Positions 2,632 to 38,646 of a DNA stretch of 41,167 nt are shown here, piece after piece. The stretch spans positions 1 through 41,167 of the forward strand of contig LNZM01000090.1 of assembly GCA_002007295.1 (NCBI GenBank). Direction: 5' to 3'. The stretch's first letter is position 1, and each line of letters begins with the position of its first letter. A program made the position numbers and the translations under genes. The notes under the pieces were generated by a model. It ran no database searches, was not told where the DNA came from, and was given only the letters and a program-made list of their open reading frames with translations. This DNA is from Candidatus Epulonipiscioides saccharophilum. GTDB taxonomy: Bacteria; Bacillota; Clostridia; Lachnospirales; Cellulosilyticaceae.

Positions 2632-2638
2632 AAGGGGG
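2632..2638 (+). promoter_or_regulatory. Ribosome binding site of the giant gene
   Basis: AAGGGGG ends 8 bases before ATG 2647. It fixes the start, which is followed directly by a good signal peptide. Confidence 0.75.
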
Positions 2639-2646: not shown

Positions 2647-5600
2647 ATGAAACTTAAAAAGGGTTTAGCGGCCGTTTTAATATCTACTACATTAACTAGT
2701 AATTTACCAATATATGCTCCTGTTTTAGCTAATACTTCTTTCGAGGATACTGACAATTTTAGCGATGAAATTTTCTTCGATGAACAGCTTTTTCTTCAGG
2801 AAAATTCTTTAGATTTATCCTTTTCGTCTCATGCCGATGAGTTGATTCTCTCGGATCAATTATTAGCCTTTGATGAGTTTTCTTCTCCTGACTTTAATTC
2901 GGATTCCTTTATCGATGACTCTTCTATTATCGAGGACTTCGAAATTATGGATCAGTTCTCTTTACCCGAAGAATTCGTACCAGAATCGATAGGATATGAA
3001 ATTCCTACCTTAGTCGATAATTCCTATGTCGATCATATAGAAGAAATTGATTATCTTCAGGACATTTTAGATGAATTTGACAGAGTGGAGGCGGAACGTA
3101 AACTCGTCCTTGTTTATGAAAACTCTACTGCTGAAATCCAAATCGGCCTTAAATGTATTTCTAAAGATCAAATGGACGCTTATATATCTGAGTTGACAGA
3201 ATTCAGAACAAACCTTCTTGGTTCTTATACAGACTTTATGGATGAAACTGCCTATAATTCACAAAAAGATATGTTAGAATCCATAGAACATAATTTCAAG
3301 CAACATTTAGATAAAGGAACTTATTTTAGTTTAAACTCTTTACAAACTTTACTGGACAACGCTCAAGATGTCATGTTCGGAATAATATCTGGCCCTCAAG
3401 CATCAGACGTAGCAAAAGGGGCCAAATTTGTGTCCCATACTATTTATGACGAACTAACTGTTCATATCACTGAAGCGGAAAGTTATTTAGCAATGTCCGT
3501 TGAGAATATAACTGAAATGATAATCGCAAATATAAAAACCCTAGAAACTAATCTTGCTCAGGCCACTCAATCCTTTATCGATGCAATAGAAATTGGTACT
3601 AGTATAGAAGGCGCCAAAGATTTGTTAGCAGATTTGATTTCCAACGCCGAAGATCTCAATGATAAGTTAGCTTGTATTGAGGATGGTGATCTATTATATG
3701 AAAACCAGCAATATATTCTAAAAGAAGATAAGCAGACATTTACGGATGCTATCGACGATGCACAAGAAATTTTAGATGCCATTTACGAAAACGGTTCAAC
3801 ACGAGATGTAGAGGGTGCGATATTAGCCATAAGACAAGCGACAGCGTTGATTGAAACTAAGGTTAGAATATACAAAGAGTTAGACACAATCGAGCTTGAG
3901 CAACTAATCGATTCAGCACTAAAATTATCGGCTGAAATTGAAACTCGGGATATAGCCCAAATATCTGTGCTAGAATTAATGTCGGACGAGGAAATTCCCG
4001 ATAACGCTTTTGTGACTAAAGAAGAAATGAAAGCATTGCTAAATGCTATCGAAATAGCCCAAGCTATTGTTGCCGATCCTAAAAATTTAACTACCATAGA
4101 CTTAGCGGTTCAGGACTTAAAGGTCGCCATTGCTATATTTAAAAATAATATAAAAATTGGATCCGAAGGAGAAATAGAAGATGTTCTCCAAAGTTTTGAC
4201 ATGTTCATAAACGATATAGAAGATCAATATGACGACATTATGGAGAAATGCAAAATTATTAATAAAGACCCAGAGGATGTTGACAAAGGTCAAGAATACA
4301 TCTCCAAACTTGCTGACAATACTATGCGAGACGCAATAGATAAGGCTAAAGAAATATCCGAGATGATCTTTAGTGATTTAGAAAATTGTCAGGCTACTAT
4401 ATTTCAGGAACGCAAAAATTTAGAACAAGCCTTAATAGTATTCAAATCATCTATACAAGTTGGTACTAAAAAGTTGGATGTGCGAATGCTAGAACGTTTA
4501 ATAGAGGATGCGCTAGAAGAAAAAAGTGATGTCGTGATTAGAAATGAATCCGAGGACGAAGTTGAAGCTTATATCTATTTTGTGGATGAAGAGACTATGA
4601 ATGAATTTAAGGCCGTTATCGAAGCCGCTCAAGAATTAGTAAAAAATCCACTAGATATCGATGATATCAACGCCATGGAAAATGCTTTAGATTTAGCCAT
4701 GGATAATTTCAAAGATGCTAAGTCAAGAGGTCGGGGCGAAAACAAGCAATATGTATTTGAAGATTTACAGACTGCTTTAAGCCAGACGTTAAGTGTGAAA
4801 AATGGTGTATTAATTCTAGAAGAAGATCAATTAACAGAGGATATAGCATTAGGAACTAAGTTTATATTAGCAGAAGATTTTGAGCTATTCGATAATAATA
4901 TTTCTCCAATCGAAAGAGAAGTAGAGAAGTTAGTCGAAGATCAATTAAGAGGATATACACCTAGAATAAATAGCAACAAGATCCGAGAATATATGGTTAT
5001 TCTTGAAGTTGCTGTAACCGACTTTACGGATTCCCTACAAATAGGCACCGGCCTAGTTGTCGAAGTCAATGAATTAGCCGAAGTCGTAAACAATGCTTTC
5101 GTAGCCAAAATGGATGTGTTCGAGGCGGAAAAATCTTCTTATGTTATGGACGGTAAAAGTTTTGTTACTCCTGAAATAATGGCTAAATTCAACGAAGCTA
5201 TCAATTCTGCCACTATTGCTATGGACAGTCCTCGTGATTTATTAACCGTGATCGACGCTAAACAGGCTTTAGAGGATGAAATCAGAGTTTTCAAATATGC
5301 AATTGAGCAAGGAACAAAAGTTTCTATCATAGACTTATCAGAATTAAGAAATGCTATAAACGGTTTAACTAGACAAACTAGAAACCTTATTGGTACCGAC
5401 TTATCTGCTGCTGAAGTACCGGATAGCTTAACCTTTGTAAGTCCCAAAGAATACGATATCATCCAAACTTATTTAGGCCGAGCTAACACTGTCCTTGTAG
5501 ACGCTGAAATGTTAAACGAGGATAGCGAGCTTTCTGAAATAAAGGACATGGAGAAACGTGTAAGTATTGCTCTAGATCACATATACGATGTCCCTTTCGA

Positions 5601-8600: not shown

Positions 8601-11600
8601 AGGTAAATCCAAATTAGCTCTACAAGAAAAAGGCGACGACCCCGATGATCTTTTCGACGTTGCTCGAGCTATCAACTCTATTAGAGTGCGTGAACAACAA
8701 CTCTTGGCTGCTGCCCAATCCGGTTTAGTTAATACAGAAGCGCTTCGGTCATTATTAGCCAATGTTATGTCTGATAACCTAACTATCGGTCAATCTACTC
8801 AATACGGTGTTGGTGACATCGATGATCCGGCCACTAACCAAACCGATTCTGATAAAAAAATTAAGGTTATAGATCGACCTGATGATGAGCCAGAATATTC
8901 TTTCGAATATGTCGACGCTAACGTAAAATTTATTTCTTCTCAAGAATTTCAACAAATAGAAGATAGAATAGAAGATACAATCAATAAATTATTGGCCTTA
9001 ACCGATAACCAAGTAGATGAAGACATTGCCATAAAACCACTCCCAACTTCCCTACTCCCTCCGTCACTTCGTGACACCTCCCTCGGAGAAGGAGGTAGAA
9101 GCCGTAGTATAGAACACAATGAAGTCTCCCAATTAAAACTTCAATTAGAAGATGCCTACAATTTATTATCAGAAGATAATTTAAAAGTCGGTTCAGCAAA
9201 TCTTTATGGAGAGTATGAAGATATACCTAGCGATAAAGAAGGAGCATCGTTAACTCAACGTATTTACTCTCTTCGTCGTCCAACTATGATATCTCCGGAT
9301 AAAGAAGCTATGATGATCGATACTATCCAAATATTAAACGAAGATCCTTCTAATGTTCAGTCCGCTATTCAATATGTAAGAACGACCGAGGATAAAACCG
9401 AATTAGTCAATGCTCTAGAATTTGCCGAAAGTTTGACTGTCGATAATTATACTGATCCATTCGATGTGTCTACCGCATTGTTAAGGTTAAAACGTGCTCA
9501 ACGAAAAGTTTTGCAGGGCGAAATCGATACTCCTAGCAATTATGAAGATTTAATTAAACTAATAGATTATGCTAATTCTCTACGAGCTATAGTGGGTGCG
9601 GGACTGTCCCCCTCCGGGAGGGGGATGTCAGCGAAGCTGACAGGGGGAGAATACGTTTATACTACAAATGCTTTAGCTCTAAACGATTTTGATACCCAAC
9701 TAGATATCGCTCAAAAATCTCTACTAAAATCTAATGGATCTGACGAAATTGCTTCGGCTATAAATAATTTACAAGCTGCTATTCAGCAATTTATACCTCA
9801 GCTAAAATGGGATACGGATCACTCTTTAACTATCGATGACTTGAGTGAATTATCTTTTTCTCACGCTAATACTAATGACTTAATTCAGGATTTCCAAATA
9901 GAAAAATCTATCAATCCAGATACTAGTAAAGAGATCTATGTTATTAAAATGCCCGTCGGAACCAATGCTTTTGCTATAGACTTAAACTTTAATTTAGGAT
10001 TATCCGAGGATCAATATGCCGAAGTAATTACAGATTTGGACGATGAAAATATTTTTGAAGATGATTCTAATAAATATAGCATAGCAATATCCGAGTTCCA
10101 ATATACTAACCCAACGATTGAAATTGAAAACTCTATGCTAAAAATTCATGACCTACGAACTTTGGCCGAAAATCAATTAACAATAAAATTAATGCACCAA
10201 TTTATTAGTCCGGATATGTCCATAGAATATCCATCTATAGAACGAGAGATCGTGTATAAATTCGAGGTGGCTAACACAGCAGAGACCAGCGATCTACTTA
10301 GTAGATTATCTTATGCTAACAAACTAATAACGGATTTAGAAGTTATCACCGATAAATCTATATTCGAATCCGAACAATTAGGATCCGAAGAGAATCCAAT
10401 TCACAAAGGTATTCGCTTTATTACACAAAGCAATGAAAAGATTTTGCGAGAAGCTCTAATCCAAGCCAATAACATGAAAGACGATCTACTACCTGATAAA
10501 CGGATATTAGCAGAAACAATCACCAACCTAACCCATGCTTTAGAAAGCATCGATTTGGGAGAGACAAGTAAACCAGAAATATACGAGCTGGAAAATGTAG
10601 AGAAGCTAAACAAACTAATAACAGATACACAATCATTACTCACCAAAGGTTCTTGGCCTTTTGGCCCGGTTAATCCAACACAAGAACCATGGTTAGAACA
10701 ATCCCTGGACGATAATTTAGACGATATTTCAGCCCAAGATTTATACAATGAATTGATCGTAGCTAATACTTATTATCATACACTTCAAGATGCTTACAAT
10801 ATCGAAGAAAGAATATCCGAATTAACTAAACGATCCGAGCAATTTGCTGATGCTTTAATGTGGAAAAATGGCCAAACTTTAGATCTCGAATCGCTAGAAA
10901 TATTAACTATAGCTGGCCAACCTATGCAAGGTGTAAATAATTCTGAATCGAAAATTGCTTGGGCGGATACCGGTTGGTCTCCAATAATGGACGAAAATAA
11001 CGAACCTACATGGCCGAATGAGTATGAACAGTTTGCTAAAATTTATCTTCCAGCTGGGTGTAATGAATTTTTATTAAAGGTAGCCGGAAAAGAAAGTGTG
11101 ATTGTAGAACCGATCCCTAAAGAGGACGAAGGTATATTCATAGAATCGGACGGATCCATAAAAATTGAAAATGTAAGTAACTTGAAAACAACCGAGGGTA
11201 CAGTGGATATAAGATTATCTAAAGCCATCGATGATTTAAAAGTATCTAAAGTTGTGAAATTTAAAATAGATATTGCTGACGATATTAGCTTGTCCGATAT
11301 TATTGCTACTGCTAAAGAAATGATGAGAGGCTTAAAAGTTGTTCCGAATAGTGTAATGTCAGAATACGAAGATTTAGATTTTGAAGAAAAAGTTCATAAA
11401 GGAACTAAATTTATCACGGTAGAAAATATGCAAACATTGCGTAGCGCTTTAAATGAAGCTGAAAAGAATCTTGAATTAGGAAATAATTTTGGGGCTGAAG
11501 CATTACAAATAGCGTTGGGTAAAATTCATGTAGGTAAAGCTCCCATCCCAACCCCGGATGAAATCAACGAGCTAACCACTAAACATTTGAACAAATTAGA

Positions 11601-14600: not shown

Positions 14601-17600
14601 ACCGACATTGGATAAAACAACACAAGAGAAATTAACAGAGTTGCGCAACAAAATTATCGAAGCCGAATCTATAGCCTATTATACGGTTAGAGAATCTTTG
14701 GATGATGATAATTTCAAATATCGTTTAGATGATCAATCTGAATGGGAAAAATTTAAAGGAGAAATAGCAAAAGCAAATACGATAATATATACGACGACAG
14801 GCTCGACCAGTTCAATGGATGAGGGCTTAAAAAATGCGGTCAACAACTTGCAGGCCGAAATCAATGCGTTTATAGATAAATTAAAATGGAGTGCTGCCGA
14901 CGGACTAACACCTGAATGTACTTTAGATTATATAGAAGTAAAAAATACGACGGCCGGCCAATTTTGGTCAGATTTATCTGGCCCGAATACTTCTACAGGA
15001 GAGCATAAAAGCTTAATTACAGATGATACGGGCTTAGCTATCCAGGATATTGAATATGAATTTACAGAGCCTACGCTAGAAAATGTTAATGATTTAAAGA
15101 CATATAAATCTAAAGCAACGATAACAGTACCAAAGGGAACGACGAAATTTAATTTAACTCTAAAAGTGAAGGACGATTCTAACATTTTAATCTCGGCCAA
15201 TAATATGACAGCCGAAGAGTGTTTGATTATTCCGGTAACTTTGCCGACAAGTGGAAAAACTAAGTTTAACGTAACTTTGAGCCATAACTTCGATAGACTG
15301 ATGAGTAGTCGGGTGAGGCCGGAAATTTATAGGCCGACTATTGTTAAAGAAATAGAAATCGAGGTTAAAACAGCCGACACAGGAGACTTAGGAAAAAGAA
15401 AAGAATATATTGGTCATGCTATAAGTAATTTAGATGATTTATCAACCTCCGATACGCTTGTAGATGAAATACAATTTAAGATGTTACCGAATGAAATAAA
15501 AGCAGAAGAGATAAATAAAAACGTAAGATTTACAACAGTCGATGAGATGCTTTATATTTATAATGCTATCAAAGAAGCCACCAATCCAGACGTTCAATTA
15601 GAAGCGATAAATAAGTTAACAATCGGTGCGGAAATGATAAAAAAAGGCCAACAAGAAACGGTAACAAGAATTGCGCCATTGAGTAAAGCGGCCGTAGTAG
15701 ATAGTTCTGAATTATTAGAATTGGTACTCGGTAAAATAGATTCTAACGGTACTTTGATGGACAATGATATTAAGTATAAAACTAGTGACGAAGCTATAGC
15801 GAAATTTATGACGGCGATAGGATTGGCGCAAGCAGAAATTTATTCTGGCCCCGAATCTAAGGTTATAGACGATAGGCAAACAGCGGAAGCTTTGTTAAAA
15901 TCCATGATGGAGTTTAGTGAACAATTATCATTGAAAACTCCGGTCGAAAGCACAAATCTATTAGACATGGAAATAGTCGGAGTTAAACACGCAAAAACGG
16001 GACAAAAAATTGACGCTGCAAAAGTTACCGAAAACATCGTCGATCTCTCATTTAAAGAAATTACTAATGAGGATATTTCTAACGAGACAAAATTAATTGT
16101 CGATAATAATGAAGCTTATACTATTTCGGTGCCAGCCGGGACAACGTCGTTTGCATTTGAGTTAAAACTTAATAAGGATGTGAAGGCACAAGTTTCTGAT
16201 GGATCTGATATATTAGCAACTGCAGACTATGAGATAAATCATAGCTCAACCGATAATGAAATGGCAACTATATTTATAGAGTACGATGATGAATCTGATC
16301 CTGCACAATGGAACATTATGGATGAGAGTGGTGGTAATTCTTCTCTAGTAGAAATGACGGCAAATAAATTTATGCTTCATTTAACTTATAGTTCGAATGG
16401 TAGTGATCCGGATATTAGTAAGCATATTAGATTTGAAATTGAGGAACAAGTGGCGGATTCGGAGTTAGCCTTAGAGAGTGTTATAGATTATGCTGAATCC
16501 CTAATATTAGATTCAAGCAAAAAAGTCGAAACTTTATTGATCGTTCCAGATGAGAGTTCGTTGAGTTCTGTTCCGGATACACAATATGCTATTTATCCAG
16601 CCGAAAAAATTAAGTTAGATCGAGCGTTGGCCGTAGCTTATGACCTTAGAGAAAAGCTTAAACAAGGTACCATCGTCGTTACTAAAGAGGCGATAAAATC
16701 CGCGGCCGAGAATTTGTCGGGAGCATTGGAAGCGATTCAACTTGGTGAAAATACTAGTGGCGGTGCTCAATATCCAAATCCGGATCCAAATCCAGAGAAT
16801 CCAACTTTGTTTGATCAAATTTATCAGGTTAGAGAATTAATTAAATCGACTTCGGTAACTAATAATTTAGGAGGGCAAGATTTAGATAATATAGAAATAG
16901 GAAATTATAAATATTGGATAGAGTTTGAGGATAAAGAATCAGCTTTAGGTTCAACTCCAGATGATTTGGACGATAATCTTTTAGATTTATATACAGCAAT
17001 AGCAAATGCTTATTCAGTTAGTGATACTGCGATTAATTCAGACCTTTCAAGTGCTTATGAATCATTTATAGATTATCTTCGATGGAATAATAGTTCGGCG
17101 GATAATCCGGGAATGATAAGTATCGATGAATTAGAAATAAGTTCGAATAAAGTTGATGGCGGATTGATAACAGGAGCGACATGGATAGGTGAGTGGACGG
17201 AAGCTCAAGAAAAGTTAACAAGCGCAAGTGGAGTCGAAGGTTCTGGTCAATCAACTCTGGCCGAAAATGCTGTGAAAGCTCTTGATAAAGTGATAATCAG
17301 TGTTCCGCAAGGTACTTTTGGTGAGCATGGATCAGAAGCGACAAATCTAGAAATAAAAATTACTCCGGCCGAATATGTGAAGATAGCAGAGCCAACGCCA
17401 AATAATCTACCAGAAATGAATGGTGAGTTCACACTTGAAAGTGGAATAACTATTAAAGTAGATGAAAATAATCCTAATTCCAGAATTATTATGATAGATA
17501 CTGAAACTGCTTCTCCTGATTTTGAATTTGCATTGACTTTAACACATGATTTAGATAGACATTTTGCGTTTGAAACTAATAAGTATCCTGAAGTAGAAAA

Positions 17601-20600
17601 TGAGATTACGTTTTCAATAGTAGAGGAGCAAGCAACTAGTAAAGTAGCATTAGAAGAGATGATCGAAAAAGTTAGCGTTAATTTTGACGATATTGAGATA
17701 ATCAATAATGATACTGTGGTGACGATAGACCAAATTCCAGCTGGAATTAAATTTATGACGGCTGCTGAGAAATACGCTTTAGAAAAAGCATTGGAGGATG
17801 CGAAGAGCTATGTATTAGTAAATGAAACTTCTATGACAAGCAGTTATGCTAATCCGATTACTTTGGATATGAATACAGCGATGAAAAATCTTGTTATTGC
17901 GTATAATCAAGTGAAAATAGGTACAGGTGCGGAGCAAACGCAAATAGTAGAAAGCAATGCTTATAAGGCTTTAAAAGGTTTGATAGAGGAGGCTAAAAAG
18001 TTACAAAAGGCTACAGTTGACATTGGTATAGGCGAAGATACAAGTAATATTTATGGAAGTTATTTTGTGAAGGATGCTGAAAGTAAGCGTACATTTGAAG
18101 AAGCGATTGCTACTGCAAATTATAAACTTTTGACTGCAAACGATATTGCTGGAGTTGAGGAATTAATAACAGCAAAGAGCAGTCTTTTAGCTGCGCAAGT
18201 TGTATTCGTGGATAAATTAATATGGCGTAATATTGATTCAGGTGCGAATGAATATTCTTTAAATGTAAGAGAAGCGATTAATAATGATGAATTTGATGAG
18301 GGAGATCTGGGAGACGTAACAACATCCGCAGGTGGCAAGATAGAAGGTGCTGAATTAGAAATAGAAACAGATTCAAGTACAAAAGAAATAACAGGAGAAA
18401 TTATAATTCCGTGGGGAACACCGCAATTTAAAGTAAAATTTGAAGTCAAACCAGCCGAAAATACAACGGATGAACCAGCTAAGAATAGCGGAATATTCTT
18501 TAGTTCGAGTTTGAATCCTGATAATTTATCAGAAGATAGCATAATTATTGAGGTGGATGATGTTTCAAAATTAACGAAATTAAACCCTTCACCTGAAGTG
18601 GGGCCAACAAACGAGGACGTAGAATACGCAGGCAGCTTCACAATTAAGATGTATCACAATTTAGATGGAGAGATTAGCATATCGGAAACATTATCCAAAC
18701 CGACAATAATGAGAGAAATTACAGTGAACGTTGCACGAAGAGCAGAAGCAAATCCTTCTCCAAATAGTTTAACACCTGTAATTGAGAATGCAAATGTAGT
18801 ATTGATCGAAGTGCTCAATGAAAGTATTAAAACTTTTCCGGATGGAACATTAAAAGAAAACGTTAAAAAAGGAGACAAATTCTTAACCACATCAGAGTGT
18901 GAAGCTATTGAGTCAGCCATTGCAAGTGCGAATGCTCTAAAAATAGAATTGGATACTGAGGAAATTGAAGATGAGGATATTTCAAAAATTCAGAATGCTA
19001 TTGCAGCTTTAAATTTTGCTACAAGTCAGGTTAAGATCGGTACAAACGACAATTTGATAAACAATCCTTTACCAGAAGTAGCCAAAGAAGATGAAAACGG
19101 AGAAATATTACCACCATCACCGGACTTAAGTTTTGGAGAAAATATCGTGACATGTAAAGAAACGATAAAAGCATTCGATCCAAAAGTTAATGAAGGAAGT
19201 GAAGAAGTTGTTTATGAATTAAAATTAGATGAGGATGGCGATATCGCCGAGAGTAACGAGGATGCTGTAATAATAAAAATAAGTCAAGAAGTTATGCATG
19301 AATATGAAGAGGCGATAGCCAAAGCGTACGCATCGTATTCGAATACGACTAAACCAGGCCAAGTAGCAAATGAGGAAGAATTAAAAGAGGCGCTATTAAG
19401 TGCGGATAGGAAATTTCAGCAAGAATGTTTAAATGCTATGTTGGGGGCGGCACAAACTCAAAGTGTAGTAGCTAATTTTGTAGCCGAGAATCAATGGGAT
19501 GAATCCGAGGTTCAGTTTATAGAGGAAAATCAATGGAATGAATCAGTCAACTTACAAGGGGCTAGAGTAATAAATAGTATATTACGAAATTATGCTTATA
19601 ACGAAATAAAGGCGGATACAGACTTTACCCATACTAATACGACCCATTTAATAGAAGATATCCAGTATGAAGGTGGATTTAATTCAAGATTTCAATACGA
19701 AAATACAATAACAGTTCCTTATGGTACTACTAAATTCGATTTGGCCTTAACTTTGACTAATTCAAAGGTAAAGGCAACTATAGAACCTGAGAGCATAAAA
19801 AATAAAGTTTCGATAAAGCAGAATCCGAATATAAATCCAGCTGATCCGAAAGAACAAATAATAACTGTAGATTTGGGAGCCGGAGAATTAGACTTTGATT
19901 TGAAATTGAAGTTAGGACGATTTATAAATTTAGATTTTCCGTTTGAAGTGAAAATAGCGAATGCGCCAAATATTAATGCGCTGAAAGAAAGAATAAAAGT
20001 GGCCGAAGCTTGGATGCGTGAGACTGTTGTTCTTAATAACGATAAACTTGGAGGGAATGTAAAATCCGGAATCAATTATATAACAGTAGAAAATAAAAGG
20101 GATTTTGATAAAGCACTAAAAGTAGCGAAAAATGTGCCGGATTCTGCTAGCGCCATGGAAATTAGTACAGCACTAGATAACTTGAATGGTGAGTTAGAAC
20201 ATATTTCATTGGGTACTGGTACTTTTTCAGATGTAAGTGCAGATACATTAAAAAATAATATTGTAGAAGCTCAAAAAATTATTGATAAAGTATTTATCTC
20301 ATCCAATGATGGAATTGCAGATGAAAACAGTCTGAATGTTGGAGAAAATTATTGGGTAGATGAAAATGCTGTAGAAACATTTTATGGAGTCATAGCGGAC
20401 ATTAATGAAGCAATATATTGCACTACAAGTGCACTCGATGAGACAGTGCAACTAAATAATTTAGCAACAGCTCAATTTGACTTTGTAGAGGCAATTAAAT
20501 GGGGGGCCGAAAAGAATAGTTTAGCATTCGAAAATTTGGCCGATATCGAGTTTACAGATTTATCTGGAAATAAAATAAGCGATATTGATGAAGCAAGTCA

Positions 20601-23600
20601 ATCTATTAGCGTGCCAGATATTACCGATGGTATGAAATTTAATATGCTGGTTAATCCATCGTCTAATGAGGTAGAAGTAGAGGCTTTGTATAAAAAATCA
20701 GGTAATCCAGGTACATTGGGAGAGTTCACAGTAGAACCAACAAGCGATAATAATTATTTAGTAACAGTAGATACAAGTTTTTGGGATTCTTCTGCAACAA
20801 ATAGTATGGAAATAATTTTAAAACACACAGATGGAGATAGAACTTTAAGCCAAATTTATCCGTTTGACATTGAGTTGACAGCTATAGATAACACTGCTTT
20901 GGACAAAAGATTAAAACAAGCTTATGAGTTTTTAGCATCCTTGGATTTAGCGACCGATGAATTGCCAAGTAAAGTTCATGCTGGAATTAAATTTATTGGT
21001 GAGAGTGAATATACAACTTTGATAAATGCTATAGAACAAGCGAATGAGAATACGGGAAGTGACTATGCTACGTTGGTTAAGAATTTAACAGAGAAAATGG
21101 AAATAACACCGAAAATCGGTATCGCAAGTAAGCCGAGCTTGGATTATACCGAGTTAGAAAGATATATAGCTATAGCGAAAGCTAATACCGTAATGGAAAA
21201 TTTACTCGTTAAAAATAATCATTCGGAAAGTTTAGGTACGGATGAATATTTAGTGAGTGTGGCAAATAAAAAGACTTTAGATGAAGCGATAATGGATGCT
21301 AAAATAGCCTTGTATACGTCGACGAATGCTAGTACGCAGCAGGAAATAGATACGGCGACAATTAAATTGGATATAGCAAATTCTAAATTTCTTGGAGAGT
21401 TAGAATGGGGTGATCCTACTAAATATAGTTTACAGATAGATGATTTAAAAGAAACAGTAGATTCAACACTAGGCAGTTTTAAAAATTCAGCAGGCCAAGA
21501 TTTGGCTAAGATTCAGTTAACCGATGGCGATGCAGATTCATATCCAATAATAACAGTACCAATAGGTATGAAAGAATTTTATGTAATAGTAAATAAAACG
21601 GAGGCAAATAACGATTCAAGCTTCACAATAAAGACAGATGAGGAAAATGTACAAATACCAAATATATCTGGCAGCGGTACGGTACCAGCCGTAAAGGCCA
21701 AGGTTGAAGATGGTGAATTAATTCTAAATTTAGCGAGAGCAACTGGCGAGCCAGCTTTGTCTCGATCCGTTAAGTATTTGATAGAGGAGAAAGACTTAGA
21801 TACGGCCAATGATTTGAAAAGAGAACTAGGTGAGTTAGCAAATTATGCTAAAGGATTATTGGATACGATTATAATTATATTGCCCGATAATACAAAAGCT
21901 GAGCAAGTTCACTCTGGAATAGTTTATGTAACTGAAACGGACTTAACTCAAATAAACTCTTTAATTACTTTGGCCAACACAACATCACAAGATTCAGACA
22001 ACGTAGATAAGGAAAAAATAAGAAATGTTATAGCTGAGTTAACAGCATTTTTGGAGAAAATTAAATCTGGGCAGGCCGAGGAACCGAGTGATTATTCAAG
22101 TAATGATAGTTCAAGTAATGAAAATTCAATATCTAGTATAATATCCAAGGCTCAAGACTGTGCAAATAAAGCAGGTGAAGAAGATGGCAAAAAAATTAAA
22201 CTTGTAAATATTGCAAGCGATCAAGTTGATAATCAATTCTGGATTGAGGAGTCCAAACATGAAACATTGCTTACTGCAATAAATGAAGCTGAAATAGTAA
22301 GACATGTAACGGATTCAACTTTAGTTGACGATACAGCGTTATTAATAACAACTTTTAAAGACGCAGCCAGAAAATTAGAGATTGCTCATTCTGAATATCA
22401 AGCTAATTTACATTGGCAAAGTAATGCGCAAAATACTTTATCTATTGGCACGATGCGTTTTAATAATACGGTTGGAAATACAATTTCTGATATAACCAAT
22501 GTAGCTGGAACAACAACAGAATGGCCGCAAATTATAATCCCAGCGGGTACCACTGAATTTAATATAGTCGTAGATAAACAAAATGCGGATATTACGTTAA
22601 AAGCTATGTTAAATAGTACAGCGTTAACTGAATCTACTTCGGGCCAAACTGTGACGATACCGATTACTGGATTAAATTTAACAGCTGAACAACCTACTGC
22701 GACATTACAAATTACTTTATCACACACTGTAGGTACTTTTAGACAAGATAGAATAATTAAATACACAATTAAAAATCTAGATACTGATAATCATGATTAC
22801 GATAATCTAACCGACAGAATGAACTATGTAAAAACTGTTATTTCAGGAATCGAGGTTATTGTGCCAAATGGCACTGTTAATACAAGCGTACCAGCAGGAA
22901 TTAATTATATTCTCGAGGACGATAAAAATACTTTGAAAGAAGATTTTGCACACGCTAAAACTTTAACATTAGGATCAGATCCAGATGATATAAAGACAGC
23001 GATTTCAAATTTAACAACCGAGATACAAAAAGTAAAGGTTGGAACTAAAATAGGGTTTTCAGATAACAATGCTGATTTGAAGAATACAATAGATAAGGCA
23101 ATCATTTTAGCAAAATCTGAAGATATTAAAGTTTCCGATAGTAATTCAGATAATAATTACTATTGGGTGCCACAAAGTGAAAAAAATATTTTTTTAGAAG
23201 CTATTAATACAGCTCAAAAGGTTAGATATGAAATAACATCAGGTGTAAGTGCAGAGGCTGCAACTAAAACTTTACTCCAAGCAAGATCGAAATATATTGG
23301 ATTAATAAAATGGGATGATGACAAAGCTTTGACACTGAGTGCGATTGCAACTGGAGATAATGGTCACTTTATCGACGCAATTGGTTTAAAAATTCCTGAT
23401 ATTTCAGTAGATGTTACACAACAAGAAAATGGAATATATATTATTTCAGTTCCTGAAGGTACAACGAAATTTAATTTAGAAGTATCGCCGACCGTGTCGT
23501 CTGATGTGACTTTAAGTGTAGAATCGGCAAATAATTGTCAGGCAACACTCAATGACAATACAATTTCTGTAATCGATATAACTAATCTAAGTGCCGATGA

Positions 23601-25644
23601 CAATAAATTTACGGTTAAACTTTCGAATAGATTAAATAGTTATAATTTAGAAAGAGAATTATATTTTAAAATTCAAACAGCAGATAATATTGAGGACAGA
23701 CAAGATTATCGGACGGCCGTTAAAGAGGCGATAGATATTTGTTTTCAAGATAACACTAATTTGGACGAAAGTACTGTTCATCCGGATATCATTTATATAG
23801 AAGATAGTCATTATGCTACCTTGTTGAGCGAATTAGAATCAGCTACACAAAATATAGCTAGCTTAACGGCAGCAATAGAAAGTGCTAAAAAAGGCAAAAA
23901 AACACCAACTTTTAATTTAAATGATAATTTAAAAACTGAAATTGACAATGCCGAAAAATTGGAAGCTTTAATTGTCACAACTGATCAAACAGGAAATCAA
24001 ACAGGAAAATATAAGGCTACTACACAAAATTTGACTAATTTTCAAAACGCAATTAATGTTGCAAAAATATCGTATGCGACTCACGATGCCAACATAGACA
24101 ACGCACAAAGTGATCTTATTTCAGAGAGGGATGAATTTGAAAGAACCCTTGTTTTTGATACTGATAAAACACTAGATAATTCTTTCACAGCGACAGTAGA
24201 AAACGGTGATTCTATAACAACAGTAGGATTCGATCAAGAAAATCCAGGAATATTTTTTAGTCCAACACCATCTGAAACGCAGGCATCTTTGAAATTTATA
24301 TATGATAATAATGAAGAACTTTCAATTGTGGCCAAAAAAGACGATGGTATAGATATAACAATAGATCCAGAAAAATCAACAGATGATAATACTAAGATAT
24401 ATACAATTCCAATCATAAAGACGGGCGGTACAATTAACGACATTATAGTTAATGGTAAAATATCTATAACTCGTACGCATCAATTTCCTAAAGTTAATTC
24501 AGTAACACCAGAACCGATAGAAATTACAACAGATTATTTAGTTACAATGATTAATGAAGAAAAGTCAACTTATCAAGATTTATCCAATGCGGTGAAATAT
24601 GCAAAAACTATTTGTTTTATAAATAAGACAAACAGTGACAGTGATTTATCTACTGTTCGTAAAGGAATTCGATTTGTCAATGTGACTGACCATGCTCAAG
24701 ATTTAGAAACAGCTTTGTTTAAGGCAAACGAAGCATTGCCTGAAGAATCAGGTATGAATACTGCATTATCTACTATGGACCAGCAAGAATTATTAACAAA
24801 TCTTACCAATGAATTTGAGAATATATTAGTTGGATCCAGTACTACTTTAAATGAAAATGTTGGGGTTTCGGAACTAAAAACAGCTATAAACACAGCTCGT
24901 GAATTACTGATTCAAACGAAAGTAGGTTCTGAAGGCGTAAGTTCACCGAATTATTTTGTAGAGCAGCAAGAGACCAAAAATACTTATATAAATGCAATAG
25001 CAACCGCAACTACTGTGTTGCATACAACAGGTGGCAATGTAAGTACAGCGAAAACTACTTTAGACGGAGCAACCGAGACATTTAAATCTGCATATTGTTG
25101 GCATAACGATAATTATGTTATAAAAAAAGTTGAGATTGATGGTTATGCTAATGCTAATGATTTATATGCACAGGCAAAAATTGATAAGACATCCGCAGAA
25201 AATAATATTGTTATTATTCTTCCTAACAGTATTACTGGTGAAAAAAAGTTAAGACTACAATTAACTGGAAAGAATGGTATTAATATAAGTGATATTACAA
25301 AGAATATAACAGATATTAGCGGTCTAACAGTTCATTTAAGTGATATTATTAATTCATCAGTTAATATTGATATAACAATATCTGATGGAGCAAATTTGAC
25401 TCCAAACCAAACATTTACAGTAACTTTAAATTCAAATTGTTCAGAGGAGAATGGAAAAATAGAATTAACTTTTTCAATTACAAAAGGAGAACCAACAAAC
25501 AGTTCTTCGCTCCATAGCATAGCACACCCTCACCCTACGGATGACCCAACACAAATAGCCTCAGCCCTTGCCAAACCTAGCTTAGCCAAAAATATGATCG
25601 GTAAAATCTCTCATGCTTTAAAAGGCGTTTTCGCAAGATTATAA
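2647..25644 (+). CDS. Giant secreted modular protein with FIVAR-like helical repeats and beta-sandwich-like modules
   Basis: A single frame of 7,665 codons (roughly 840 kDa). Residues 1-29 form a signal peptide (MKLKK, hydrophobic core, VLA-N). Residues 30 to about 150 are very acidic. Up to about residue 2385 I count about 22 helical units of roughly 100 residues, each with a helix, a G-x-K-F-V-[ST]-like strand motif, then two helices ending F-x-x-x-I-x-x-G-[ST]; this is the layout of FIVAR domains (PF07554-like). From W2388 to about residue 7600 a regular array begins: a beta-rich module starting near a Trp and containing V-P-x-G-T-x-x-F, then two helical units, 15 times, plus a last beta module near W7485. 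The beta modules resemble cadherin-like beta-sandwich domains, which is inference. No LPXTG, SLH, GW or LysM anchor is visible; the tail ends LKGVFARL. Probable role: extracellular fibre, adhesin or matrix protein. The ligand is unknown. Confidence 0.9.
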   Translation: MKLKKGLAAVLISTTLTSNLPIYAPVLANTSFEDTDNFSDEIFFDEQLFLQENSLDLSFSSHADELILSDQLLAFDEFSSPDFNSDSFIDDSSIIEDFEIMDQFSLPEEFVPESIGYEIPTLVDNSYVDHIEEIDYLQDILDEFDRVEAERKLVLVYENSTAEIQIGLKCISKDQMDAYISELTEFRTNLLGSYTDFMDETAYNSQKDMLESIEHNFKQHLDKGTYFSLNSLQTLLDNAQDVMFGIISGPQASDVAKGAKFVSHTIYDELTVHITEAESYLAMSVENITEMIIANIKTLETNLAQATQSFIDAIEIGTSIEGAKDLLADLISNAEDLNDKLACIEDGDLLYENQQYILKEDKQTFTDAIDDAQEILDAIYENGSTRDVEGAILAIRQATALIETKVRIYKELDTIELEQLIDSALKLSAEIETRDIAQISVLELMSDEEIPDNAFVTKEEMKALLNAIEIAQAIVADPKNLTTIDLAVQDLKVAIAIFKNNIKIGSEGEIEDVLQSFDMFINDIEDQYDDIMEKCKIINKDPEDVDKGQEYISKLADNTMRDAIDKAKEISEMIFSDLENCQATIFQERKNLEQALIVFKSSIQVGTKKLDVRMLERLIEDALEEKSDVVIRNESEDEVEAYIYFVDEETMNEFKAVIEAAQELVKNPLDIDDINAMENALDLAMDNFKDAKSRGRGENKQYVFEDLQTALSQTLSVKNGVLILEEDQLTEDIALGTKFILAEDFELFDNNISPIEREVEKLVEDQLRGYTPRINSNKIREYMVILEVAVTDFTDSLQIGTGLVVEVNELAEVVNNAFVAKMDVFEAEKSSYVMDGKSFVTPEIMAKFNEAINSATIAMDSPRDLLTVIDAKQALEDEIRVFKYAIEQGTKVSIIDLSELRNAINGLTRQTRNLIGTDLSAAEVPDSLTFVSPKEYDIIQTYLGRANTVLVDAEMLNEDSELSEIKDMEKRVSIALDHIYDVPFDIEIHDGRLEISELEEFFDNCLLLLENDIAIYPDDVRSEDVDQYVEYSTITDYKALMLEMAKARSVIENPYVFVDDQDSDKIESVIDTTLESLQEAYDSFYESTKYGDKDPNENYNDRKRNYNEEDDENSQLKDELKDEIKKLEDLLESANHIKFGIYVIATDNQSVEEGMAKGVKYVSIDAVNDLNDEINDVTNDFDNTLSDFNNIEDDDISTTEIEDVISSLEDYQDTLQDAISDFKYEIQEGEKVYEHLSNISALVEEIESAYAAMYGVKSINSIADLVSLGTKFVSPAELEEYIMNIAQAESVIRLASNATEQLVAETIYSLNDSIRKFKDAIQEGNYLDSTELLEKITEINRLLGNVITLGDRIQESEVDKGTVFISRSNRNNIIDLIIQAQTAIDNSDPIAMDEALESLDDIIRFEFADYIKVGTFANNTKLENQIEKAWHLIRNTIIMDDEMEPGNVANDLVYANYSMLETLADEIINGTSILLDPDAEIEEIAEQSRVIELAMEEFQKNIILGALFTRTGLDTSALIESIGEAKSVLEVTMPGTDPSLVETGLYIVDEEFIDNLIDKVRNAEFLLRNPGSKYSIESIIEDLDEQIDELVNNREEANGPVNLSMIESLINKAENIIADVNESEDTIDEEKLIQLFNKNIFEVPIGIKFVNTFEYNELTEALDDAQNKLSGNKQEVENATLNLSDAISLFQANIKSGKGSPESGADNVGKLLKAIQEANDQKKNVTILDLPPEQVAQGVKFVTSSMMESLNQILLEANLLLTKLLKEEGLLQSEHSQIENIIDELERVLTEEFNIEKGQLETGDLIELIAEAKSIREMDGDHKIYILLEDSDFLDSDPSNDTRDPITVDKGIHYVSPSVATELDLAIADAESAMASSRSSASKRSVDLEYNLQTAIETFQKSIKIGSATIGQATDTNNFFYMYMSTSSDDQSLAQTIQETESLVNKSTSEEIGILGTDKSASELDSRVQFVDKELRQSLDNALDEGKSKLALQEKGDDPDDLFDVARAINSIRVREQQLLAAAQSGLVNTEALRSLLANVMSDNLTIGQSTQYGVGDIDDPATNQTDSDKKIKVIDRPDDEPEYSFEYVDANVKFISSQEFQQIEDRIEDTINKLLALTDNQVDEDIAIKPLPTSLLPPSLRDTSLGEGGRSRSIEHNEVSQLKLQLEDAYNLLSEDNLKVGSANLYGEYEDIPSDKEGASLTQRIYSLRRPTMISPDKEAMMIDTIQILNEDPSNVQSAIQYVRTTEDKTELVNALEFAESLTVDNYTDPFDVSTALLRLKRAQRKVLQGEIDTPSNYEDLIKLIDYANSLRAIVGAGLSPSGRGMSAKLTGGEYVYTTNALALNDFDTQLDIAQKSLLKSNGSDEIASAINNLQAAIQQFIPQLKWDTDHSLTIDDLSELSFSHANTNDLIQDFQIEKSINPDTSKEIYVIKMPVGTNAFAIDLNFNLGLSEDQYAEVITDLDDENIFEDDSNKYSIAISEFQYTNPTIEIENSMLKIHDLRTLAENQLTIKLMHQFISPDMSIEYPSIEREIVYKFEVANTAETSDLLSRLSYANKLITDLEVITDKSIFESEQLGSEENPIHKGIRFITQSNEKILREALIQANNMKDDLLPDKRILAETITNLTHALESIDLGETSKPEIYELENVEKLNKLITDTQSLLTKGSWPFGPVNPTQEPWLEQSLDDNLDDISAQDLYNELIVANTYYHTLQDAYNIEERISELTKRSEQFADALMWKNGQTLDLESLEILTIAGQPMQGVNNSESKIAWADTGWSPIMDENNEPTWPNEYEQFAKIYLPAGCNEFLLKVAGKESVIVEPIPKEDEGIFIESDGSIKIENVSNLKTTEGTVDIRLSKAIDDLKVSKVVKFKIDIADDISLSDIIATAKEMMRGLKVVPNSVMSEYEDLDFEEKVHKGTKFITVENMQTLRSALNEAEKNLELGNNFGAEALQIALGKIHVGKAPIPTPDEINELTTKHLNKLESVLKKAEAILYYTTLVSNENDHNDIYGDPTLDKYCLTDMEYQAFQSAIAKITAIFITTYRDMQHNTPVDLNKEEHQLEVDIKTAIDQLSWRGNLTENDPDFYKLELGDGEESPLTDAITFSDASGVEINDIVKSETEENTIELQVPLGITNFTMNLAVKPHSSIHGAGEIEVTVPESGETELEVTMQHSLANDLVSQVNSQEQTTAADEVPEIPTISKTMKFSIVQNESTDLSSDLQSRIDYAKNAAQGVIMVSDGTENIYSGEKFLTVTEANSLVNAIQKAESLIDSGISETDEIQDAIKAITSSVEKIKVGSMPTIVVNAEDILIELNKAKALAAASVFAFKKTDEPNDRVTDKFGNQVEHYWTNDEENKLAFDKAIAKAQTAIVTSPTVEISNKAEIINDLHKAYGIFESTLNFYSDPSSNPSSVRSNILPSDITFATEIISDVIYSKSIDEHNNNIHTLKVPAGTKKLDLALKLDDGVNVKITEGNDFTGLEEPSLDNGEAKVSIDVVQNNPNEDKNVQLENRKFAIELECSKFSSDTAHTIFDVDDLGTAVPNIEKTETFILEEMLEPTRNDLAKRIEFAETLINGLIVLENPEAGTVKKSINIANKIELDRALRVAKRLTSTSSEVENQRAIERLTNALETIHKNENGIDLDEDNAILQGHMAEVEKVQTLISSTVISPDGNYDLDGLSIENYWVNSQAVGETLAESANVDHDLALTAIYQAIAEANTSIYGGSGLSSYDLETAVDKFVAYLRFKNASGFSAINISPAIEFTNSNDELITWITCKNNYDNSDLLALDQFTILAPTGEYKFNMKITPQPGVKIKSIVDGSTILDDAIIDNFVATSDPIILEVDNRAGSFTINLAHDFGATPIDYPEVINQIKFTIDNTTEASIPVSEIITKAEQEMNELEVIDENLVESTSINLFAVPEQLANNAIANKIHEGVKYISLEDWIALDNALKAAQELNNGGSATANSSEIQTLLTALANIKKGKAPKPTLDKTTQEKLTELRNKIIEAESIAYYTVRESLDDDNFKYRLDDQSEWEKFKGEIAKANTIIYTTTGSTSSMDEGLKNAVNNLQAEINAFIDKLKWSAADGLTPECTLDYIEVKNTTAGQFWSDLSGPNTSTGEHKSLITDDTGLAIQDIEYEFTEPTLENVNDLKTYKSKATITVPKGTTKFNLTLKVKDDSNILISANNMTAEECLIIPVTLPTSGKTKFNVTLSHNFDRLMSSRVRPEIYRPTIVKEIEIEVKTADTGDLGKRKEYIGHAISNLDDLSTSDTLVDEIQFKMLPNEIKAEEINKNVRFTTVDEMLYIYNAIKEATNPDVQLEAINKLTIGAEMIKKGQQETVTRIAPLSKAAVVDSSELLELVLGKIDSNGTLMDNDIKYKTSDEAIAKFMTAIGLAQAEIYSGPESKVIDDRQTAEALLKSMMEFSEQLSLKTPVESTNLLDMEIVGVKHAKTGQKIDAAKVTENIVDLSFKEITNEDISNETKLIVDNNEAYTISVPAGTTSFAFELKLNKDVKAQVSDGSDILATADYEINHSSTDNEMATIFIEYDDESDPAQWNIMDESGGNSSLVEMTANKFMLHLTYSSNGSDPDISKHIRFEIEEQVADSELALESVIDYAESLILDSSKKVETLLIVPDESSLSSVPDTQYAIYPAEKIKLDRALAVAYDLREKLKQGTIVVTKEAIKSAAENLSGALEAIQLGENTSGGAQYPNPDPNPENPTLFDQIYQVRELIKSTSVTNNLGGQDLDNIEIGNYKYWIEFEDKESALGSTPDDLDDNLLDLYTAIANAYSVSDTAINSDLSSAYESFIDYLRWNNSSADNPGMISIDELEISSNKVDGGLITGATWIGEWTEAQEKLTSASGVEGSGQSTLAENAVKALDKVIISVPQGTFGEHGSEATNLEIKITPAEYVKIAEPTPNNLPEMNGEFTLESGITIKVDENNPNSRIIMIDTETASPDFEFALTLTHDLDRHFAFETNKYPEVENEITFSIVEEQATSKVALEEMIEKVSVNFDDIEIINNDTVVTIDQIPAGIKFMTAAEKYALEKALEDAKSYVLVNETSMTSSYANPITLDMNTAMKNLVIAYNQVKIGTGAEQTQIVESNAYKALKGLIEEAKKLQKATVDIGIGEDTSNIYGSYFVKDAESKRTFEEAIATANYKLLTANDIAGVEELITAKSSLLAAQVVFVDKLIWRNIDSGANEYSLNVREAINNDEFDEGDLGDVTTSAGGKIEGAELEIETDSSTKEITGEIIIPWGTPQFKVKFEVKPAENTTDEPAKNSGIFFSSSLNPDNLSEDSIIIEVDDVSKLTKLNPSPEVGPTNEDVEYAGSFTIKMYHNLDGEISISETLSKPTIMREITVNVARRAEANPSPNSLTPVIENANVVLIEVLNESIKTFPDGTLKENVKKGDKFLTTSECEAIESAIASANALKIELDTEEIEDEDISKIQNAIAALNFATSQVKIGTNDNLINNPLPEVAKEDENGEILPPSPDLSFGENIVTCKETIKAFDPKVNEGSEEVVYELKLDEDGDIAESNEDAVIIKISQEVMHEYEEAIAKAYASYSNTTKPGQVANEEELKEALLSADRKFQQECLNAMLGAAQTQSVVANFVAENQWDESEVQFIEENQWNESVNLQGARVINSILRNYAYNEIKADTDFTHTNTTHLIEDIQYEGGFNSRFQYENTITVPYGTTKFDLALTLTNSKVKATIEPESIKNKVSIKQNPNINPADPKEQIITVDLGAGELDFDLKLKLGRFINLDFPFEVKIANAPNINALKERIKVAEAWMRETVVLNNDKLGGNVKSGINYITVENKRDFDKALKVAKNVPDSASAMEISTALDNLNGELEHISLGTGTFSDVSADTLKNNIVEAQKIIDKVFISSNDGIADENSLNVGENYWVDENAVETFYGVIADINEAIYCTTSALDETVQLNNLATAQFDFVEAIKWGAEKNSLAFENLADIEFTDLSGNKISDIDEASQSISVPDITDGMKFNMLVNPSSNEVEVEALYKKSGNPGTLGEFTVEPTSDNNYLVTVDTSFWDSSATNSMEIILKHTDGDRTLSQIYPFDIELTAIDNTALDKRLKQAYEFLASLDLATDELPSKVHAGIKFIGESEYTTLINAIEQANENTGSDYATLVKNLTEKMEITPKIGIASKPSLDYTELERYIAIAKANTVMENLLVKNNHSESLGTDEYLVSVANKKTLDEAIMDAKIALYTSTNASTQQEIDTATIKLDIANSKFLGELEWGDPTKYSLQIDDLKETVDSTLGSFKNSAGQDLAKIQLTDGDADSYPIITVPIGMKEFYVIVNKTEANNDSSFTIKTDEENVQIPNISGSGTVPAVKAKVEDGELILNLARATGEPALSRSVKYLIEEKDLDTANDLKRELGELANYAKGLLDTIIIILPDNTKAEQVHSGIVYVTETDLTQINSLITLANTTSQDSDNVDKEKIRNVIAELTAFLEKIKSGQAEEPSDYSSNDSSSNENSISSIISKAQDCANKAGEEDGKKIKLVNIASDQVDNQFWIEESKHETLLTAINEAEIVRHVTDSTLVDDTALLITTFKDAARKLEIAHSEYQANLHWQSNAQNTLSIGTMRFNNTVGNTISDITNVAGTTTEWPQIIIPAGTTEFNIVVDKQNADITLKAMLNSTALTESTSGQTVTIPITGLNLTAEQPTATLQITLSHTVGTFRQDRIIKYTIKNLDTDNHDYDNLTDRMNYVKTVISGIEVIVPNGTVNTSVPAGINYILEDDKNTLKEDFAHAKTLTLGSDPDDIKTAISNLTTEIQKVKVGTKIGFSDNNADLKNTIDKAIILAKSEDIKVSDSNSDNNYYWVPQSEKNIFLEAINTAQKVRYEITSGVSAEAATKTLLQARSKYIGLIKWDDDKALTLSAIATGDNGHFIDAIGLKIPDISVDVTQQENGIYIISVPEGTTKFNLEVSPTVSSDVTLSVESANNCQATLNDNTISVIDITNLSADDNKFTVKLSNRLNSYNLERELYFKIQTADNIEDRQDYRTAVKEAIDICFQDNTNLDESTVHPDIIYIEDSHYATLLSELESATQNIASLTAAIESAKKGKKTPTFNLNDNLKTEIDNAEKLEALIVTTDQTGNQTGKYKATTQNLTNFQNAINVAKISYATHDANIDNAQSDLISERDEFERTLVFDTDKTLDNSFTATVENGDSITTVGFDQENPGIFFSPTPSETQASLKFIYDNNEELSIVAKKDDGIDITIDPEKSTDDNTKIYTIPIIKTGGTINDIIVNGKISITRTHQFPKVNSVTPEPIEITTDYLVTMINEEKSTYQDLSNAVKYAKTICFINKTNSDSDLSTVRKGIRFVNVTDHAQDLETALFKANEALPEESGMNTALSTMDQQELLTNLTNEFENILVGSSTTLNENVGVSELKTAINTARELLIQTKVGSEGVSSPNYFVEQQETKNTYINAIATATTVLHTTGGNVSTAKTTLDGATETFKSAYCWHNDNYVIKKVEIDGYANANDLYAQAKIDKTSAENNIVIILPNSITGEKKLRLQLTGKNGINISDITKNITDISGLTVHLSDIINSSVNIDITISDGANLTPNQTFTVTLNSNCSEENGKIELTFSITKGEPTNSSSLHSIAHPHPTDDPTQIASALAKPSLAKNMIGKISHALKGVFARL
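9055..9095 (-). repeat. Palindromic element inserted in frame in the giant gene (minus orientation)
   Basis: CTCCCTCCGTCACTTCGTGA and the following ACCTCCCTCGGAGAAGGAGG match intergenic repeat copies (for example near 27785 and 2223). The hairpin GTCAC-TTC-GTGAC lies at 9063-9075. It is translated as LPPSLRDTSLGEGG (about residues 2137-2150), a Pro/Gly/Ser-rich stretch unlike the acidic helical sequence around it. It falls in the loop between the second and third helix of one FIVAR-like unit, keeps the frame and has no stop. Confidence 0.8.
9606..9655 (+). repeat. Palindromic element inserted in frame in the giant gene (plus orientation)
   Basis: The segment has two hairpins, CCCCCTCCGGGAGGGGG and GTCAGC-GAA-GCTGAC (9627-9641), followed by AGGGGGAGAATACGT. 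It aligns with the intergenic consensus of two hairpins then GGAGGGAGAAAGCGTGC. It is translated as LSPSGRGMSAKLTGGE (about residues 2322-2337), replacing the loop between helix 1 and the GEYVYTT strand of a FIVAR-like unit. The frame stays open. Confidence 0.82.
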
Positions 25645-37192: not shown

Positions 37193-38563
37193 ATGCAATT
37201 TCATTCAGATAAAAAACCAAACGTAATTTGGATATTAACCGATCAAATGCGAGCTAGTGCTATGAGCTTTCGTGGGGATGAAAACGTTAGCACCCCGAAC
37301 TTAGATAACATGGCCAGAGAAGGTGTAGCATTCATAAATGCGGTCGCCGGCACACCATGGTGTTGCCCATTCCGTGGCGCATTATTAACTGGGCTTTATC
37401 CTCACCAAAACGGTGTTACTGAAACTCCAAAAGCGCTCGATCCATCCATTGACACCATTACTAAACCGTTTAAACAGGCTGGCTATCATACAGCCTATAT
37501 CGGAAAATGGCACCTAGATGGCTCCAATAATGTAACCCACTATATTCCTAAAGATCGCCGTGGTGGTTTTGACTACTTCATGGGCTACGAAAATAACAAT
37601 AATCAAAATGAATGCTACGTCTTCGGTAATGACTCCGAAGAGCCAAAAAGATTAGATGGTTACGAAACCGATGCCCTAACTAATATGCTACTGAATCATT
37701 TAGAAGGCCATGTTTCTCAAGATGACTATAAACCTTTCTTTGCGGTCTTATCCGTTCAACCACCGCACGATCCGTTTATAGCCCCAACTTATACAGGTGA
37801 AGGCGTAAGATATTATCATAATCCGGCTAGCATTAAACTACGTCCTAACGTTCCTCCTGGAAAATGGTCCGATGAAGCTAGAATCGATTTGGCCGGTTAT
37901 TACTCCATGATTGAGAATATAGATACAAATGTTGGTCGCATTAGAATGGCTCTTAAAAATCTCAATATCGATCGTGAAACTTATCTTATCTTTATGTCCG
38001 ATCATGGTGATTGTCTAAACTCTCATGGCCAATGGAATAAATCTAGCCCCTGGGAAGAGGCGATCAGAATTCCTTTTATCGTTTGCAGAGTAGGCACCGG
38101 TGTGCATCAACAAACTGGCGAAAGAGATGCTGTAATTAACCATGTGGATATTGCTCCGACTACTTTAGGCTTGTGCGGTATTGATATTCCATCCAATATG
38201 GTCGGGTTCGATTATTCTCCTCTTTGTATCAAAAAAGATCAACCAGAGTATCACGAATTAACTTCTGATTTGCCAGAATCGGCTTATCTACAACAAATTC
38301 CAAGGAAATACCATGCTCATACAGCCAATAAAGAATGGCGAGCGGTCGTTACTAGAGACGGATTTAAATATGTTTGCTACGATAAACAGGACGTCATGCT
38401 CTTTAATCTAAATGATGACCCTTATGAAATGGCTAATCTATGCCATGATACAACTTCTCAGCCAATAAAAGAAAGGCTGCATGCTATTCTTCAAAGTTAT
38501 ATTCAGGATACTGGAGATAAATTTGACCTTCCCGACATTACTCTAAAACGAAGAAATAAATAA
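37193..38563 (+). CDS. Type I sulfatase, predicted cytoplasmic
   Basis: 456 residues of the formylglycine-dependent arylsulfatase family, which hydrolyses sulfate esters. Residues 9-18 (PNVIWILTDQ) give the first metal-binding Asp (D17). C57-C-P-F-R61 followed by GALLTG fits the C-x-[PA]-x-R-x4-TG signature, with C57 as the residue to be converted to formylglycine. GKWH (104-107) and SDHGD (269-273) supply further active-site and calcium ligands. There is no signal peptide, so the substrate is probably taken up or internal. The ribosome binding site is GAGGT at 37180-37184. No maturase gene (anSME or FGE) is in the window. It is 83 bp upstream of a second sulfatase and probably in one operon. 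The substrate is unknown; sugar sulfate esters are the commonest for such pairs. Confidence 0.93.
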   Translation: MQFHSDKKPNVIWILTDQMRASAMSFRGDENVSTPNLDNMAREGVAFINAVAGTPWCCPFRGALLTGLYPHQNGVTETPKALDPSIDTITKPFKQAGYHTAYIGKWHLDGSNNVTHYIPKDRRGGFDYFMGYENNNNQNECYVFGNDSEEPKRLDGYETDALTNMLLNHLEGHVSQDDYKPFFAVLSVQPPHDPFIAPTYTGEGVRYYHNPASIKLRPNVPPGKWSDEARIDLAGYYSMIENIDTNVGRIRMALKNLNIDRETYLIFMSDHGDCLNSHGQWNKSSPWEEAIRIPFIVCRVGTGVHQQTGERDAVINHVDIAPTTLGLCGIDIPSNMVGFDYSPLCIKKDQPEYHELTSDLPESAYLQQIPRKYHAHTANKEWRAVVTRDGFKYVCYDKQDVMLFNLNDDPYEMANLCHDTTSQPIKERLHAILQSYIQDTGDKFDLPDITLKRRNK

Positions 38564-38633
38564 GAAATTAGGAAATGCTACAGCGAAATAATAGATAGGA
38601 AATGAGGAAATGCTGCAGCGAAAAAATAGATAG
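38564..38633 (+). repeat. 35-bp direct duplication in front of the second sulfatase
   Basis: GAAATTAGGAAATGCTACAG plus about 15 more bases (38564-38598) is repeated with few changes at 38599-38633. The second copy contains an in-frame ATG at 38602, and the real ribosome binding site AGGAG (38632-38636) starts at its end. Confidence 0.8.
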
Positions 38634-38646
38634 GAGATTATTTAAA

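Follow-up and report, generated by a model that had tools for sequence, protein, structure and literature searches.

The 7,665-residue protein encoded in the window (the whole 41,167-nucleotide stretch of DNA analysed here) consists of 20 helical units of one class, N, followed by 16 copies of an A-B-beta triplet, in which two further classes of helical unit precede a beta module. Our overall reading, to which we give a probability of roughly 75%, is that this is a secreted modular rod that grew by triplet duplication and would serve as an extended adhesive or coat filament. The composite repeat, two specialised FIVAR-like bundles plus a predicted Ig-like module, was not seen outside the genus in the genomes sampled, and the gene offers what appears to be a clear case of stepwise growth, from unit to triplet to block of three triplets.

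Layout and phase of the repeats

The protein is read from one intact ORF (2647–25644, + strand) with an ATG start. The features of the gene and its product, in window coordinates, are listed below.

2632..2638, +, Shine–Dalgarno sequence AAGGGGG, 8 nt before the ATG; by sequence a strong ribosome-binding site
2647..25644, +, giant ORF, 7,665 aa
2647..2730, +, signal-peptide-like N terminus MKLKKGLAAVLISTTLTSNLPIYAPVLA, from sequence inspection
2731..3030, +, acidic, Phe-rich N-terminal segment, residues 31–128 (net charge −27 in 98 aa, 13% Phe)
3031..9231, +, 20 N-class FIVAR-like three-helix units, residues 129–2195 (profiles, class scores, AlphaFold2)
9235..10227, +, triplet 1 (A-B-beta); its helical pair was earlier counted in the first array
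10249..11271, +, triplet 2 (A-B-beta)
11257..12198, +, triplet 3 (A-B-beta), first of the probable duplicated block 3–5
12256..13266, +, triplet 4, in the probable duplicated block 3–5
13288..14274, +, triplet 5, in the probable duplicated block 3–5
14308..15312, +, triplet 6, matching triplet 3 in the probable block copy
15379..16377, +, triplet 7, likewise matching triplet 4
16426..17541, +, triplet 8, likewise matching triplet 5
17602..18687, +, triplet 9
18754..19923, +, triplet 10
19933..20874, +, triplet 11
20860..21786, +, triplet 12
21772..22773, +, triplet 13
22756..23676, +, triplet 14; beta13-A-B-beta14 (22384–23676) modelled with AlphaFold2
23668..24540, +, triplet 15; beta module picked up by the full profile but not by the initial one
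24544..25482, +, triplet 16; includes the beta module earlier called lone
25483..25644, +, 53-residue tail, then stop; ends in a cationic, amphipathic-looking segment MIGKISHALKGVFARL

Iterative profiles built from the giant protein itself found 52 helical (three-helix) units. The first such profile gave 15 beta modules and the full profile 16, the additional one, at about residues 7160–7298, lying in a region that aligns and being recovered by the profile of all 16 with an E value of 9e-17. The two-part plan that had been proposed from the sequence is apparent in these module profiles, an N array being followed by a composite array. The proposed period of about 340 residues is borne out as well: beta modules are spaced by 281–424 residues (mean 339.8), and self-alignment of residues 2480–7665 gave a top offset of 335 residues, at 5.6 times the mean compared with 2.4–2.6 times in shuffled sequences, and a second offset peak at 1010.

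Where the layout departs from the original prediction is in the phase of the composite array, which had been described as a beta module followed by two helical units, 15 times over, with a lone beta module at the end and about 22 units in the first array. Class profiles were made for the first-array units and for the helical positions A and B, and each unit was scored leave-one-out. With the original phase, A and B were assigned correctly in 29 of 30 units. The penultimate unit of the former first array scores 32 bits as A and 22 as N, the last unit scores 29 bits as B and 24 as N, and profiles in orthologues give mostly the order A-B-beta; we therefore set the phase as A-B-beta, repeated 16 times. 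The first array then has 20 units, the last two of the former 22 being the first A-B pair, and no beta module stands alone. In the alignment, this first pair also shares the Trp (or Phe) with which B ends immediately ahead of the beta module.

With the A-B-beta phase, all 32 A and B units were classed correctly in the leave-one-out scoring; when the labels were swapped randomly within pairs, 300 trials gave 16.4 correct on average and 27 at most. A and B are thus distinct classes, and the consistent divergence claimed for the two positions holds. The motifs said to mark them show a real bias, but a partial one: G-x-x-[FY]-hydrophobic is carried by 11 of the 16 A units and by 2 of the 16 B units, and [YF][WF][VIT] in half of the B units (8/16) and in none of the 16 A units. 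The GxKF[IV]T and YWV motifs of the original description occupy the same site in A and B, the short strand before helix 2.

Duplication of triplets

Mean identity among the copies is 23% for A, 20% for B and 19% for beta. Across the 16 triplets, the similarity matrix of A correlates with that of B (p = 0.0008), that of B with that of beta (p = 0.008) and that of A with that of beta (p = 0.039), as expected from the copying of whole triplets, and this supports the suggestion that the triplet was the unit of duplication. When all blocks and lags were searched, the best three-step diagonal was that of triplets 3–5 against triplets 6–8 (p = 0.0007), so a nine-module block was probably copied from the former to the latter. 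No general trend was seen for neighbouring triplets to be more alike than distant ones (p = 0.29), and only lag 3 stands out. Recent expansion at the DNA level was also considered; a tandem repeat search revealed no long array in the giant gene, so the duplications are old.

It is conceivable that each beta module entered between helical pairs by an insertion of its own, in which case the triplet was not the duplication unit. Linker lengths do vary, as the spread in spacing of 281–424 residues illustrates, and identity among triplets is only about 20%. However, the correlated matrices and the significant diagonal between triplets 3–5 and 6–8 are both at odds with such a history, as is the A-B-beta order largely retained in two orthologues, and we regard independent insertion as improbable. 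Duplication of whole triplets remains the preferred account.

Predicted folds and family relations

Structure prediction gave the folds that had been anticipated, helical bundles and a beta sandwich. The AlphaFold2 model of beta13-A-B-beta14 (19 rows; pLDDT 83.3) comprises a beta sandwich, two three-helix bundles and a second sandwich, and that of three N units (pLDDT 85.7) contains three bundles of the same kind. The modelled bundles run from helix 1 through an extended loop with two short strands to helix 2 and helix 3, the arrangement of a three-helix bundle with an extended helix 1–helix 2 loop found in solved FIVAR and F-repeat structures.

The structure matches of the bundle include NagH (2ozn; Z 11.1, 77 residues at 2.1 Å), ZmpB (7jrl; Z 9.2), EbhA 2dgj, Embp 6gv8 and 4kjm, Z scores under about 13 not being decisive alone for helical bundles, for which the unrelated DnaK and SCIN score similarly. 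The top Foldseek match of the bundle was EbhA (E = 0.19), and weak PDB profile matches were obtained to Embp, a hyaluronidase FIVAR entry and ZmpB. At the sequence level, no Pfam family other than FIVAR matched more than two units. Seven of the 52 units match FIVAR at E ≤ 1 (best 5.5e-5), all below the Pfam cut-off; the best single unit reaches 23.1 bits against PF07554, where the gathering score is 29.2 bits. The triplet profile from the window does, however, reach genomes in which FIVAR is found at 50.4 and 48.5 bits, over the cut-off, in one protein with SLH domains and one with dockerin. The FIVAR identity claimed for the helical units is thus not established by any unit at the Pfam cut-off but is supported by fold and transitive matches, and the relationship would be a distant one.

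Ig and cadherin domains dominate the matches to the sandwich (model residues 8–133), mostly at Z 6–8. The beta module is therefore predicted to be an Ig-like beta sandwich, at the level of the fold only. The more specific proposal that it belongs to the cadherin-like family PF12733 did not stand, since the profile search matched just one of the 16 modules, at E = 0.074.

Orthologues and distribution

Orthologues are found in the Ca. Epulonipiscium congeners G008, G010 and G011, where N-type units are again followed by A-B-beta. In two of the other genomes of the genus, profiles trained on the giant protein alone traced N units succeeded mostly by A-B-beta, and in a third they traced a short version of the same plan. 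The congener orthologues have fewer triplets than the protein in the window, and those of G010 and G008 carry a C-terminal leucine-rich region that the latter lacks. Frame breaks interrupt the N-terminal part of the G011 orthologue (L059 1127–3368); either the gene is in decay or the assembly contains errors there.

Among the 392 genomes of the order searched, the beta module was confined to the genus. In a class-wide sample of 391 genomes, matches outside the window's own genome concerned chiefly the helical portion of the profile. Four of the five genomes of the genus contain 74–107 FIVAR-like units each and the fifth contains none; in other genera of the family the number is 0–29.

Ends of the protein and the giant-gene set

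The giant protein has a net charge of −721. Scans of the whole protein against Pfam, NCBIfam and PHROGs gave nothing above cut-off; neither an SLH domain (Pfam scan) nor a Pfam match to DUF1542 was found, and no enzyme domain was detected. No YSIRK signal was seen, no LPXTG-type motif was found at the C terminus, and past the N terminus there is no membrane segment (no hydrophobic 19-residue window exceeds 1.6). We infer export from the N terminus, and surface location and a rod shape are likewise proposed. Given the lack of an SLH domain, an LPXTG-type motif and a membrane segment, attachment of the protein to the cell is not explained, and it could be released.

The protein also points to a set of giant genes. 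In the 3.19 Mb assembly, which is 92% complete, homology matches reveal at least 16 ORFs of 2.2–7.7 kaa, together about 171 kb or about 5.4% of the assembly. The count is a lower bound; for three of the ORFs the length given is that of the frame, and contig or locus ends truncate some of them. Several of the ORFs carry FIVAR-like units. No sortase was matched in the five genomes of the genus, control genomes being positive, so the anchoring of this set, about 5% of the assembly, is unexplained. SLH proteins are common, with 26 SLH matches.

Eight giants of 2,974–4,231 aa on other contigs of the same genome (L066, L067, L069, L070, L071, L072, L075 and L076, of which L070 is truncated at its 5′ end) have a 64-residue stretch with 36–42% Asp/Glu within their last 80 residues. 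In L067, L069, L070, L071 and L075 a short cationic amphipathic segment closes the C terminus after the acidic stretch; at the cut-off used (charge ≥3, hydrophobic ≥5, moment ≥0.5) 4 of 551 background ORFs pass. In L066, L072 and L076 a hydrophobic FLF/LLLF end follows the acidic stretch directly. An N terminus resembling MSLxxKYxKQxALxL is common to many of the eight. The acidic and cationic C termini of these paralogues are a possible new targeting or anchoring signal. The tail of the 7,665-residue protein is cationic like those of the five, but no acidic stretch precedes it, and the likeness is therefore partial.

Relation to known giant proteins and possible function

Epulopiscium is a bacterium of the surgeonfish gut whose cells are among the largest of bacteria; the literature searched yielded no description of its surface proteins. 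Proteins of this kind are already known: staphylococci have giant FIVAR adhesins, and Apilactobacillus has its Giant proteins. Within the genomes sampled and the literature searched, the novelty lies in the A-B-beta composite repeat, in the specialisation of its positions and in its confinement to the genus.

Embp of Staphylococcus epidermidis has 10 F repeats followed by 40 FG repeats, both types binding fibronectin; the repeats are rod-like in solution, measure about 7 nm per two bundles and offer weak fibronectin-binding sites, and the F-repeat has an extended helix 1–helix 2 loop (PMC7587433). Like Embp and Ebh/EbhA of S. aureus, the protein described here would be a giant secreted protein of FIVAR-type bundles, a plain array preceding a composite one, its export being judged from the N terminus. 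In contrast, the composite partner is another helical module in Embp and a predicted Ig-like sandwich following two specialised bundles here, and the YSIRK signal, DUF1542 and C-terminal membrane segment of Embp/Ebh are lacking. Giant1–5 of Apilactobacillus kunkeei are extracellular proteins of 3,000–8,000 aa taking up about 6% of the genome, with helical repeats of about 103 aa, elongated models and positively charged C termini (PMC12863079). By description they share with the present case the presence of several giant proteins, a similar genome share, helical repeats and a cationic C terminus, whereas they possess beta-solenoid N domains, DUF5776/SH3b-like C-terminal domains and a gene cluster, and no A-B-beta triplet has been described in them. 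The FIVAR modules of NagH and ZmpB of Clostridium perfringens, among the best structural neighbours of single bundles, occur singly or in small numbers within enzymes, unlike the 52 units found here.

We propose that the giant protein is a secreted rod at the cell surface or in the matrix of an Epulopiscium-group bacterium. A Sec-type signal and the acidic segment would be followed by 20 FIVAR-like three-helix bundles stacked end to end and then by 16 composite units, each of two specialised bundles and an Ig-like beta sandwich; the whole triplet would have been the duplication unit, with at least one block of three triplets copied later. An Ig-like domain is about 4 nm long. If this length is combined with the 7 nm per two-bundle repeat of Embp (PMC7587433), the negatively charged filament would be about 250 nm long when extended. 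By analogy, it may hold many weak binding sites away from the very large cell, either for adhesion in the gut of the fish or as part of a fibrous coat there. We consider an extended filament at the surface, adhesive or coating, the most likely interpretation.

As to which of these functions applies, we give nearly even odds to a multivalent adhesin, with weak sites along the rod as in Embp/Ebh, directed at host mucus, algal polysaccharide or neighbouring cells. The FIVAR fold, the Embp-like array plan and the leucine-rich repeats that end its relatives are consistent with this, although the fibronectin binding of Embp need not apply to the giant protein. A structural coat or S-layer-like component, in which the giants form fibrous armour or a spacer and have no specific ligand, is possible but on balance unlikely. 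It would accommodate the strong negative charge (−721), the 26 SLH matches in the genome and the at least 16 giant ORFs (2.2–7.7 kaa, about 5.4% of the assembly), the majority of which have FIVAR-like units; on the other hand, SLH domains are lacking from the protein itself, and its units are, by the three class profiles, specialised rather than uniform.

A more elaborate version would be a lineage-specific, sortase-free coat of giant rods on the unusually large cells of the Epulopiscium group, some held by SLH domains and others by an undescribed acidic-then-cationic amphipathic C-terminal signal, with the A-B-beta rod as its longest element; this we regard as doubtful. Most improbable of all is a haem- or nutrient-capture protein built like IsdB/IsdH, with a helical linker between beta sandwiches. 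IsdB and IsdH chains were among the top Foldseek matches to the beta-A-B-beta model, but these alignments have TM below 0.2 and an rmsd of about 17–20 Å, and the YxxxY haem motif occurs in none of the 16 beta modules, and the NEAT/haem idea was rejected. The extended filament, adhesive or coating, is thus the reading that we retain.

Neighbouring genes

Just downstream of the giant gene, 25777–27696 encodes a charged, repeat-rich protein in which no signal peptide was seen; its DNA has tandem repeats whose unit lengths are 36, 72, 129 and 165 bp, and also 27 bp. The giant gene is also followed by a tandem-repeat region, a different one, in G010 and G011. At gathering scores, no RNA elements were found in the window.

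At 28389–33296 lies a gene for an SLH-domain protein of 1,635 aa (P0003), which is 51% identical to its counterpart beside RNase Z in Ca. Epulonipiscium viviparus; an 18-bp DNA repeat array within it (29229–29346) codes for Asp/Ser/Thr/Asn-rich sequence. A functional link between the giant protein and P0003 was considered and is not supported, since the two genes are about 370 kb apart in G011. The neighbouring RNase Z is 75% identical to that of Ca. E. viviparus and 62–71% identical to other fish Epulopiscium records, which would place the host in the Epulopiscium group; the SLH protein, RNase Z, TsaD and sulfatases stay together in E. viviparus. Two adjacent genes at 37193–38563 and 38602–40137 appear sulfatase-like on sequence inspection, and their products share 83% and 77% identity with neighbours in Ca. 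E. viviparus; the pair possibly acts on sulfated algal polysaccharides in the host diet.
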